DNA of 40,923 nucleotides from an uncultured Flavobacteriales bacterium (GTDB taxonomy: Bacteria > Bacteroidota > Bacteroidia > CAIKAF01): contig CAILUT010000038.1 in NCBI GenBank assembly GCA_903837495.1, forward strand, positions 1 through 40,923. The letters are read 5' to 3'. Below are positions 1 through 5,693 of the stretch, piece by piece; within the stretch, counting starts at the first letter, position 1; every line of letters begins with the position of its first letter. The position numbers and the translations under genes were made by a program. The notes under the pieces were generated by a model. That model worked only from the letters and a program-made list of their open reading frames with translations, was not told the DNA's origin and made no database searches.

Positions 1-18
1 ATTTAACAAGGGGGTAAT

Positions 19-47
19 TTTGCATTCACGGGGGGAATTTACCTTTA
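19..47 (+). promoter_or_regulatory. Putative Bacteroidota promoter for the MBL-fold gene
   Basis: TTTG at 19-22 and TACCTTTA at 40-47 are separated by 17 bases. This fits the Bacteroidota sigma-factor pattern (TTG, about 17-23 bases, TAnnTTTG) except for the last base. Transcription would start near 53, giving a leader of about 25 bases before the ATG at 78. A second box-like stretch, TAATTTTG at 15-22, lies too close to the window edge to judge. Confidence 0.45.
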
Positions 48-77
48 GGTTAGGAAAACGAACTGAAGCCCCTTATC

Positions 78-902
78 ATGAAAATAACGGTTATGGGAAC
101 TGCCGGAGAAACAACGGTGCCGGCCATTTTCAGCCAAAGGTATGGGCATCAGCGTGCATTGGAATTGGGGCATAAAGACATACGTTCGCGGAGTGCGCTG
201 ATGGTTGATTCGCACTTAAAAATAGATTTTCCGGCCGACACCTTTCACCAAGTGGTAACCCAAGGCTTGGAATTGAACCACTTGAAGTATGTTTTTATTA
301 CGCGGTCGTCGTATCCTAATTTTGCTGCCGATGAGATGGCCTATGTACTGCCGTTTATTGGTGAGCGAAAAAGCGGGGAGCATCTGCGTATTTTTGGGAA
401 CTTAGAAAGCATACAAAAAGCAAAGCAAGTATTGGGGGTCAGCAATGTGGTAAGTTTTCATGAAATTCAGCCCTTTCAGGTTTTGAATTTAGGGCCTTAT
501 GTAATACATCCGTTAAAGGCCAGCAACAATGGGGATTTAAATCCGTTCAATTATGTAATTCGGAAGGGGCGCAACTCGGTATTGTACGCAACCGATACGG
601 GGCTTTACGACGAGCGGAATTTGCGGTATTTGAAAAGTGGCAGCATATTGGATGCGGTTGTGGTGGGCTGCATTCAGGGAGCCAAGCCGTCCACAGACAC
701 GCATAGAATGGGCTTTCCGGAATTAAAACGGTTTAAGGAAAAGACCGAGGAAATGGGAATAACGAGTCTGCGCACGCGTTGGATTATGACACAGGTTTCG
801 CCGAGCGACGGTTTTTTGCATGAGGAATGGAGCAGCTTGGTAGCGCCTTTTGGGTTTGAGGTGGCCTATGATGGGCTGCAAATTGTATTGAACGAACGTT
901 GA
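78..902 (+). CDS. Metallo-beta-lactamase-fold protein lacking the metal site (probable pseudoenzyme)
   Basis: A 274-residue protein resembling the PhnP/RNase Z-like MBL-fold hydrolases along its whole length: MKITVMGTAG start, IDFPADTF, LKYVFIT, an ATDTG strand near residues 171-175, and a VAYDGLQIVL ending. The metal motif of the family, THxHxDH, reads TRSSYPN at residues 75-81, so both His pairs and the Asp are gone. The later ADH-type His is Asn150 (KASN) and the ATH-type His is Gln239 (MTQ). Only the bridging Asp173 remains. The frame is open with no frameshift, so it looks like a maintained non-catalytic protein rather than a decayed gene. It converges on the phosphatase gene with a 7-base gap. 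Fold assignment is firm; function is unknown. Confidence 0.82.
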   Translation: MKITVMGTAGETTVPAIFSQRYGHQRALELGHKDIRSRSALMVDSHLKIDFPADTFHQVVTQGLELNHLKYVFITRSSYPNFAADEMAYVLPFIGERKSGEHLRIFGNLESIQKAKQVLGVSNVVSFHEIQPFQVLNLGPYVIHPLKASNNGDLNPFNYVIRKGRNSVLYATDTGLYDERNLRYLKSGSILDAVVVGCIQGAKPSTDTHRMGFPELKRFKEKTEEMGITSLRTRWIMTQVSPSDGFLHEEWSSLVAPFGFEVAYDGLQIVLNER

Positions 903-3629: not shown

Positions 3630-4259
3630 TTAGAGTTCATATATTTCTTTTGCTTCCAGAAGTTCCGTTTCGGGTTGATTGGAAGCCACCAAAATTAACC
3701 TTATATTTTTTTCCCGACGTATAATATGGGAATAAAATTCAAATCCGGCTTGGTCAAGGTTGGAAGCGGGCTCATCGAGGAACCAAAAAGGCACATCCGA
3801 CAAAAATGCCAACAGCAGCCGTACCCGCTGCTTCATTCCCGATGAAAAGGCCTGAACAAACTGGTTTTGCTCGTTGAATAAGCCTGCCAAATCCAACAGT
3901 TCTGATTCGGACGAAGTTCTGTACAGCTTCCCCATCAGCAGTTTATGGAGGGCGAGCAATTCTTTGAGGCGGATTTGTTCGGGCAAATCAATATAGGGCC
4001 CGCACAAAACCATGGATTTTGGCCATTGTTCAGCAGCCTGGGGCATGCCGTTGACCGAAACAGAAACCTGTCCCTGATCGGGGCGCATCAAGCCCGACAA
4101 AATTTTCAGCAAGGTTGATTTTCCCCGGCCATTGGCTCCAGTAATGCCAATCAGACCTGGCCCTATGAAGCGGATGTTTTTATGTTCAAAGATCATTTTG
4201 GGCCCGAACTGGCGACTCAAATTTTCAACCTGAATGACCAATTCGGCAGTCGAGGTCAT
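3630..4259 (-). CDS. ABC transporter ATP-binding protein (CcmA-like, degenerate switch loops)
   Basis: A 209-residue single ABC ATPase domain. Walker A is GANGRGKST, the signature is FSSGMKQRV, and Walker B is FWFLDEPASNLD. The H-loop His is replaced: the strand after Walker B ends ILVASNQPETE. The region after Walker A that normally carries the Q-loop Gln reads VLCGPYIDLPEQ. I chose the ATG at 4257-4259 because it overlaps the fabZ stop as ATGA; the frame stays open upstream, but only inside fabZ. No permease gene is adjacent. It may couple to an unlinked membrane partner for envelope export or act in a non-transport role. A CcmA-like gene at this place between lipid A genes and efp is, as I recall, common in the phylum. 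Confidence 0.85.
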   Translation of the reverse strand: MTSTAELVIQVENLSRQFGPKMIFEHKNIRFIGPGLIGITGANGRGKSTLLKILSGLMRPDQGQVSVSVNGMPQAAEQWPKSMVLCGPYIDLPEQIRLKELLALHKLLMGKLYRTSSESELLDLAGLFNEQNQFVQAFSSGMKQRVRLLLAFLSDVPFWFLDEPASNLDQAGFEFYSHIIRREKNIRLILVASNQPETELLEAKEIYEL

Positions 4260-4735
4260 TGTGCGTTCCGAACCAATTGGGCCATCATTTCGCCTTCCAT
4301 CACCACTTTCCCGTTCACATAGGCTTTTCCTGCCATGTGGCAAATGCCGCGGCGGATGGGCGACACCAAATGCAAATCAAACACGAGGGAATCGCCGGGC
4401 ACCACCTTTTGTTTAAACTTCACCTTTTCAATTTTAATGAAATAAGGCGTATAGTTTTGTGGATCTTCAAGGGTACTCATAACCAAAATGCCGCCCACCT
4501 GAGCCATGGCCTCAATTTGCATTACGCCTGGCATGACGGGATTCCCGGGGAAATGTCCTTGGAAAAAAGGCTCGTTCATGGTCACATTTTTAATTCCAAC
4601 AACCGAATCGGAGTCCAGGTAAACGACCTTATCTACCAGCAAAAAAGGATACCGGTGGGGCAACATGCCCATAATGGCATGAATATCGTACACCGTTTGG
4701 TTTAAATCTATTTCAGAAATGTTGCGCTCATTCAT
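4256..4735 (-). CDS. fabZ: 3-hydroxyacyl-ACP dehydratase FabZ (stand-alone)
   Basis: A 159-residue hotdog-fold dehydratase that converts 3-hydroxyacyl-ACP to trans-2-enoyl-ACP in fatty acid synthesis and competes with the lipid A acyltransferases for substrate. The LPHRYPFLLVDKV start block, the catalytic His in FQGHFPGNPVMPG and the catalytic Glu in IEAMAQ are all present. In most Bacteroidota this domain is fused to the C-terminus of LpxC; here it is a separate frame whose ATG overlaps the lpxC stop (ATGAATGA, 8 bases). The N-terminal ~17 residues resemble the linker of the fused protein. Its stop overlaps the ABC gene start by 4 bases. Confidence 0.95.
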   Translation of the reverse strand: MNERNISEIDLNQTVYDIHAIMGMLPHRYPFLLVDKVVYLDSDSVVGIKNVTMNEPFFQGHFPGNPVMPGVMQIEAMAQVGGILVMSTLEDPQNYTPYFIKIEKVKFKQKVVPGDSLVFDLHLVSPIRRGICHMAGKAYVNGKVVMEGEMMAQLVRNAQ

Positions 4736-5693
4736 GGGCGTAAAGTTCTCTCAATTTTCTGGCAAACGCAACATTTATAGAATGTCCGGGTCGGTGAATG
4801 CTAATGCTGCCCCGGATTCGGCGGCCTGCCAGTGCTAAATCGCCAAGGGCGTCTAATACCTTATGCCGCAGGGGTTCATCTGAAAATCGGGGTTGCAGGG
4901 TATTTAACAATCCCAGGGAATTGCCGGTTAATTTATCGCGGCCGAAGCGTTGAATAAGTCGGAGCAGTTTGGATTCTGGCAGGGGCTGTTCGGCATATAC
5001 CAAGGCGCAATCTAAATCTCCCCCCTTAATTAAACCTTGGTCCATGAGGTATTCCAACTCGTGAAAAAACACAAAAGTACGGGCTGGGGCCAATTCAGCG
5101 AGAAAGGCCTCGGGATTATCAAGAAAATAGGTGCCTCCTGGAACGTGTGCGCTTTGAAAATCGATGCTGCATTCCAATGAAAATCGGCTTGAAGGGCTGG
5201 CCACCACAACGGAATTTCGGCTGGAATCCATAAGGGTAATGGGTTCAAGGATATCTAGGAAGCGGCGTTCTGCATTTTGCTGCTGCAATCGCCCTTCTTG
5301 AAGGGCCTGCACATAAGGTTGAGCACTGCCGTCGAAGATGGGCATTTCTGGGCCATCGATTTCAATCAACACATTGTCTAAATCGAGGGCCCAAATTGCG
5401 GCTAGGCTGTGTTCTACGGTGGCAACGCTTTGGCCTTCCCGTCCCAAAACCGTAGTTCGTTCGGTATGAATGACATAATCGGCCAGGGCTGGAATATCTA
5501 GGGCATCCGATTGGTCAACCCGGCGGAATCGAATTCCGGTTCCGATTTCGGCAGGCAAAAACCGAAGGCGTACGGCTTGGCCTGAATGCAGTCCTACACC
5601 TTGGCAGGAAACAGGTTGTTGAAGGGTTTGCTGAAAAACGGCAACGTTTTTCTCAGAGAAGGATTGTGGAAATGTAGATGGATTATTTTTCAT
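4728..5693 (-). CDS. lpxC: UDP-3-O-acyl-N-acetylglucosamine deacetylase LpxC
   Basis: A 321-residue zinc amidase, the committed step of lipid A synthesis. Opening block [14 protein letters not shown] is followed by the zinc ligands: His95 in VEHSLAAI, His277 in [13 protein letters not shown], and Asp281. The general acid/base His304 lies in RPGHSIN. Length matches a stand-alone LpxC (about 300 residues), not the Bacteroidota LpxC-FabZ fusion of about 460. The start overlaps the lpxD end by 11 bases. The fabZ frame upstream of its ATG meets a stop six codons earlier, and removing a single base just before the fabZ ATG would join the two frames, so the split rests on one nucleotide. Confidence 0.96.

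Follow-up and report, generated by a model that had tools for sequence, protein, structure and literature searches.

A metallo-beta-lactamase-fold protein without its metal site, conserved in a Bacteroidota lineage and encoded divergently from a PyrR-like phosphoribosyltransferase

The window analysed here, a stretch of 40,923 nucleotides, is contig C38 of a genome of 2.5 Mb in 67 contigs. It carries a gene, present once in this genome, whose product is predicted to be a metallo-beta-lactamase (MBL) fold protein of the PhnP-like branch. The features of the locus on which our analysis draws are the following.

1-77, forward strand: part of a divergent intergenic region of 181 bp, which continues into contig C39 (exact overlap of 89 nt)
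40-47, forward strand: promoter-like box TACCTTTA at -38, with a similar box in 6/6 genomes of the genus
78-902, forward strand: gene of the metal-free MBL-fold protein, reading frame intact from ATG to stop, 274 amino acids
132-149, forward strand: codons 19-24, with S19, R21 and H24 where four outside relatives have Cys-x-Cys-x-x-Cys (alignment)
300-320, forward strand: codons 75-81, TRSSYPN in place of THxHxDH (alignment with outside relatives)
519-536, forward strand: codons 148-153, A-S-N-N-G-D, the third-motif His being replaced by N150 (N150-N151-G152-D153 common to 8/8 orthologues)
594-596, forward strand: codon 173, Asp, the sole metal ligand kept (alignment)
705-707, forward strand: codon 210, Arg in a conserved-His column (alignment)
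792-803, forward strand: codons 239-242, Q-V-S-P in place of H-x-S-H, the last active-site His and the fourth structural-zinc ligand (alignment)

The open frame and the promoter box upstream of it had both been pointed out in the original prediction, which was made from the window alone; the frame stands and the box is supported. TAnnTTTG is the -7 box of Bacteroidota; the pattern TAnnTTTR lies at -31 to -38 from the start codon in all six genomes of the genus and at -59 or -62 in the two of a second genus, the chance expectation under mononucleotide shuffling being 0.05-0.25 per 130 bases. A second box-like sequence, TAATTTTG, is found at -63 from the window gene.

The assignment to the MBL fold, also made beforehand, is supported by two kinds of match, which together place the protein by common descent in the MBL superfamily. 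A tblastn search with the window protein covers 99-100% of its length in the four outside relatives that were read (one Proteus, one E. coli and two phage-labelled records, L023-L026), at E values of 5e-18 to 3e-24. The best PDB match by sequence is the PhnP structure 3g1p, with E 7.6e-4 for the window protein and 5.9e-20 for the A2 profile, which was built with ligand-bearing rows included; HMMER aligned the C-terminal part of the window protein, and the whole length of the profile, to this structure. Scores against family models stay under their cut-offs: for Pfam Lactamase_B_2 (PF12706) the window protein reaches 21.2 bits and a second-genus orthologue 23.6, the curated cut-off being 27 bits, and for NCBIfam PhnP (TIGR03307) the window protein has 21.2 bits, where 272 is required. 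The AlphaFold model had just 4 close sequences to draw on and reaches a poor mean pLDDT of 49.4, and in its structural comparison most of the 50 entries listed are MBL-fold proteins by title, with a best Z of 6.8 and all values below 7, middling according to the tool; for these reasons no pocket geometry is claimed here.

What distinguishes the protein is its metal site. Ligand columns were read from full-length alignments under two MAFFT settings, both of which gave identical columns, and comparison with the four metal-competent relatives upholds the ligand losses proposed from the window: six of the seven metal ligands are gone (R76, S78, P80, N81, N150 and Q239 stand in their columns) and D173 alone is kept. 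The residues which we take to form the structural zinc site of the PhnP type, Cys-x-Cys-x-x-Cys in columns 19, 21 and 24 with His242, are replaced by S, R, H and P; column 210, with Arg in the window protein, presumably holds the catalytic His in PhnP. All four outside relatives, 25.6-29.0% identical to the window protein, have the H-x-H-x-D-H, the third-motif and last His with the Asp between them, and also the C-x-C-x-x-C. E. coli PhnP itself (3g1p, TIGR03307), a phosphoribosyl cyclic phosphodiesterase of the MBL superfamily, shares with the window protein the order of motifs, the kept Asp and a C-terminal DG motif, but the window protein has neither the HxHxDH nor the third and last His, nor the ligands of the structural zinc.

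Orthologues were found in 8 of the 16 genomes that make up the whole sample of the family and of the order: in 6/6 genomes of the window genus, in 2/4 of a second genus and in 0/6 of the other 4 genera. At E 1e-3 the window protein matched nothing in 44 genomes of other families, and among 395 sampled genomes of the phylum only its own genome matched, whether with the window protein at E 1e-3 or with the A1 profile at E 1e-5; the A2 profile has matches in 186 of the 395, own genome included. Close metal-competent relatives were sought within the phylum in these two sets and were not found.

Across the eight orthologues the ligand is absent at columns 76, 78, 80, 81 and 150 in every member, with P, H or N, and never Asp, at column 80. 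The same losses are common to all orthologues at 76, 78, 81 and 150, a check that the original prediction had asked for. Elsewhere there is more variation: column 239 is Q in six and His in two, column 242 is P or A in four and H in four, R, S, G or K occupies column 210, that of the catalytic His, and Cys19 survives in two members while columns 21 and 24 have lost their Cys in all eight. As it is the same two genomes that combine His239 with the remaining Cys19, the site is not identical across the clade. Of the further columns that are invariant in the four relatives several are lost or mixed, E12, R28, T37, R90, I95, R123, E154, E186 and L223 being lost in all eight, and others are kept in clade and relatives alike (G7, P15, F18, D44, I49, D50, G107, N108, A148, D173, G175, M211, E250, D265, G266). 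Catalytic residues that homologues keep (4/4) are lost throughout the clade (8/8), except for D173 in all members and H239 in two, as is expected of a pseudoenzyme. Judged from the alignment, the ligand loss is specific and old, and, as the second genus stands closest to the ligand-bearing relatives, the site probably eroded in steps that began with the HxHxDH part.

These relatives are remote. In the plasmid collection tblastn found them at a query cover of at least 80% in 51 records (48 Escherichia, 2 Proteus and 1 Cetobacterium), with 25.6-29.0% identity among the 20 matches listed, and two phage-labelled records have relatives at 27.3 and 25.7%. Viral contigs, searched with A1, L025, A4 and L026 and with two DNA patterns, gave no relative. 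For a tree of 41 rows we used 30 proteins found with the A2 profile (the copy on C55 of the own genome and 29 others), minus L049, whose motif reads SHEHYDH and which was left out by the filter TH.H.[DN]H, leaving 29. The clade has support of 100/100, and clade plus the four outside relatives split from the 29 Bacteroidota MBL proteins with 100/99, a division for which the program warns of long branches. The own genome has eight PF12706 matches, one being the window gene and the others lying on other contigs. A metal-competent paralogue, suggested earlier as a thing to look for, is present, as HxHxDH proteins were read on C55, C56, C5 and C6, though these are only distant kin: the best-scoring one, that on C55, matches the window protein over 45 residues at a non-significant BLAST E of 4.2.

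Whatever the protein does now, its altered site has been preserved. R76-S77-S78-Y79-x-N81, A148-x-N150-N151-G152-D153 and D173 do not vary among the eight orthologues, despite an identity of 42-50% between the two genera. In the former-site stretches (75-82, 148-153, 172-175 and 237-242, picked by us from known motifs) 14 of 24 columns are invariant and elsewhere 66 of 250 (Fisher p=0.0019); for the ligand columns the counts are 5 of 7 and 75 of 267 (p 0.024), all these counts resting on only about three independent lineages. Nei-Gojobori estimates of dN/dS within groups are 0.058 for the window genome and G005 (dS 1.25), 0.047 for G002 and G003 (dS 0.10), 0.085 for G001 and G004 (dS 1.29) and 0.033 for G013 and G014 (dS 2.34), dS being high, at least 1.2, in every pair except that of G002 and G003. 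Out of 28 pairs in all, 21 are saturated and give no estimate; the three remaining, with dS of 2.5 to 6.1, have dN/dS of 0.028, 0.136 and 0.194, the last two coming from wider, nearly saturated comparisons. The purifying selection that had been predicted is borne out by the within-group values of 0.03-0.09, and these together with the conservation of the site point to retention of the pseudoenzyme by selection. The opposite finding, a copy under relaxed selection among close homologues with metal ligands, was not made; the ligand-bearing homologues found have at most 29.0% identity (25.6-29.0% or below).

The second constant of the locus is its neighbour. A phosphoribosyltransferase (PRTase) gene is divergent from the MBL gene in 7/7 loci that reach beyond the gene, as its immediate neighbour, head-to-head, in three (G002, G003, G005); in the other four (G001, G004, G013, G014) a RimB/Zn_protease-type gene separates the two. 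Identities of neighbours come from Pfam for three PRTases and two RimB-type proteins and from BLAST clustering for the rest. For the window the partner PRTase is on contig C39, on the opposite strand, the end of C39 overlapping the window start by 89 identical nucleotides and the two start codons being 181 bp apart. The seven loci and this contig overlap bring the pairing to 8/8. It is kept across two genera at 42-50% identity, while the genes on the opposite side differ between sub-clades: a SpoIIE-type phosphatase gene in the window group, and chorismate-synthase-like and transporter genes, named by eye, in the other four genomes. In the window this SpoIIE/PP2C-type phosphatase gene lies at 910-2106 on the reverse strand, tail-to-tail with the MBL gene, and a homologue is there in 4/4 genomes of the window group.

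We call the PRTase PyrR-like because the best PDB matches of one of these proteins are PyrR, yet three of them score 89.6, 91.2 and 79.5 bits at best, below the NCBIfam PyrR equivalog cut-off of 138. Its PRPP-type loop, DDVLNTG[RK]T, is intact in 8/8. PADLOC gave the window protein no match at E 1e-3 and the PRTase a weak ShosT match (20.9 bits), which is taken as general PRTase similarity. By eye, no gene like those of a carbon-phosphorus lyase (phn) operon was seen among the neighbours in the 8 genomes, with profiles run on a few neighbours only.

Each of the 16 genomes of the order has the PRTase and 8 have the MBL protein; the MBL protein is therefore an addition to the PRTase and no requirement for it. 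In genomes that have no MBL protein (7 of 8, G012 excluded) no open reading frame around the PRTase clusters with the MBL protein, the PRTase frame of G006 being masked by a longer overlapping one, and no change of the PRTase that tracks the presence of the MBL protein was seen by eye. Separately, a RimB/retropepsin-like gene adjoins the PyrR-like PRTase in five genomes (L057, L058, L059, L060, L095). As one of these, G008, has the pair and no MBL protein, the RimB-like gene and the PRTase probably formed a unit earlier. On C56 of the own genome (near 119264-123147) there is another PRTase, with 32% identity to the query PRTase, about 2.7 kb from an MBL gene that was named by eye as ribonuclease-Z-like.

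Because the altered site is common to relatives and the gene stays back-to-back with a gene of nucleotide-salvage type, the MBL gene is probably not dead, and its product probably has a non-catalytic role in binding or regulation. The selection on a non-catalytic function that had been proposed for it is supported, at the level of sequence, by shared losses and purifying selection. Among the functions then suggested, the constant PRTase neighbour fits a role in nucleotide binding or as a regulatory partner, and nothing was seen that points to RNA.

We propose, with a probability of about one half, that the protein is a conserved pseudoenzyme, with a remodelled pocket that takes up either a phosphorylated ligand or a partner, in the service of the PRTase encoded next to it. 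The ancestor would have been a PhnP-like phosphodiesterase of the MBL superfamily that depended on metals; its active site for two metals has been lost, as has the structural zinc site, and the protein would have been retained for another job. The former active-site pocket would have been rebuilt around R76, N81, N150 and D173 and may still hold a ligand without metals, Arg76 making up for the positive charge of the lost metals. The most likely ligand would be a phosphorylated compound of phosphoribosyl or nucleotide type, and the protein may act as a sensor, regulator or partner of the PRTase and not as a hydrolase. The substrate of PhnP is a phosphoribosyl cyclic phosphate, so a phosphoribosyl ligand would fit. 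The eight genomes that have the PRTase and no MBL protein speak against the link between the two, and a shared divergent promoter can persist without any functional link. A more far-reaching version, which we regard as speculative and rather unlikely, is a bacterial family of metal-free MBL-fold sensors in which arginine replaces the charge of the metals, the pocket is a receptor for PRPP or a phosphoribosyl compound, and the head-to-head PRTase is what is regulated.

The best-known inactive proteins of the MBL fold belong to RNA-processing complexes of eukaryotes. A compact example from a bacterium with its former site conserved would be a clean case of a two-metal hydrolase pocket turned into a binding site, and is a warning against annotating such genes as hydrolases. 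In the literature listings covered, outside which most subscription papers fall, neither a pseudoenzyme of the PhnP type nor its pairing with a PyrR-like PRTase was seen to be reported.

Four comparisons may be drawn. The long PhnP-like proteins annotated as MBL fold metallo-hydrolases in Enterobacterales and on two phage-labelled contigs (e.g. WP_188155524.1) have the same length as the window protein and full-length similarity to it, but possess all metal ligands, and the neighbours in the E. coli record differ (solute-binding protein, MFS transporter). INTS9 and CPSF100 are inactive MBL proteins that likewise have a degenerate HxHxDH within a kept fold (PMC7980224); they are eukaryotic, carry a beta-CASP domain and belong to RNA-cleavage complexes with an active paralogous partner, whereas the window protein is bacterial, PhnP-type and of single-domain length. 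RNase J2 of Firmicutes is likewise a bacterial MBL protein, and some of its metal ligands are not conserved (PMC5383250), but it retains several of them with weak nuclease activity and pairs with RNase J1, and the window protein has lost six of seven. Finally, PqqB gives a weak profile match to the window family (6e13_A, E 4.1e-4, the N-terminal 43 positions only), its role, in PQQ biosynthesis, being different. The active site of PqqB is unusual.

A possible, if less than even, alternative is a pseudoenzyme that binds no small ligand and works as a scaffold or subunit through protein contact with the PRTase, the RimB-like protein or a metal-competent MBL protein, like INTS9 beside INTS11. INTS9, with its changed HxHxDH, is termed a pseudoenzyme and is the dimer partner of an active subunit (PMC7980224), and the genome does encode metal-competent MBL proteins. 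The conservation, however, centres on the old active site, which a pure scaffold would not need, the C55 paralogue does not match the window protein significantly, and the remaining PF12706 matches are on other contigs.

It is improbable that the protein is still an enzyme, its site remodelled for a chemistry that dispenses with the two-metal centre or uses a single metal bound by D173 together with, e.g., H57, H248 and E250: these four residues are invariant in 8/8 and H239 is kept in two genomes, but the active-site H-x-H pair is absent from all eight (the only H-x-H found is at positions 22-24, in three members) and the catalytic-His column has R, S, G or K. Very improbable is a decaying remnant of a lost enzyme, a reading suggested by the loss of six of seven ligands and by the absence of the gene from 8/16 genomes; eight open frames without internal stops, the within-group dN/dS and the promoter-like box in 6/6 genomes of the genus speak against decay, and we reject it on selection and on the shared, invariant motifs. 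A misread alignment with the true ligands elsewhere and the metal site intact, for which the poor AlphaFold model leaves room, is hardly credible, given the concordant MAFFT settings, the full-length tblastn, the C-terminal HMMER match to PhnP, the kept flanking residues (D44, I49-D50, G107-N108, A148, D173-x-G175, M211, E250, D265-G266) and a window protein without any H-x-H.

On the proposed pseudoenzyme we have no more to add, and three observations made beside it may be given. Around the metal-competent relative, genes for a solute-binding protein, an MFS transporter and an MgtC-type protein stand in the same order in L024 (1493-6819, E. coli plasmid, annotated) and in L023 (1455-6835, Proteus, by eye). 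L025 (MT837371.1), labelled Bacteriophage sp., resembles by eye a bacterial chromosome, with a sugar ABC transporter, a LacI-type regulator and the MBL gene. FabZ and LpxC are fused in many Bacteroidota; in the window, at 4256-5693 of the reverse strand, the FabZ-like and LpxC-like genes, recognised by eye, are separate and overlap by a few bases.
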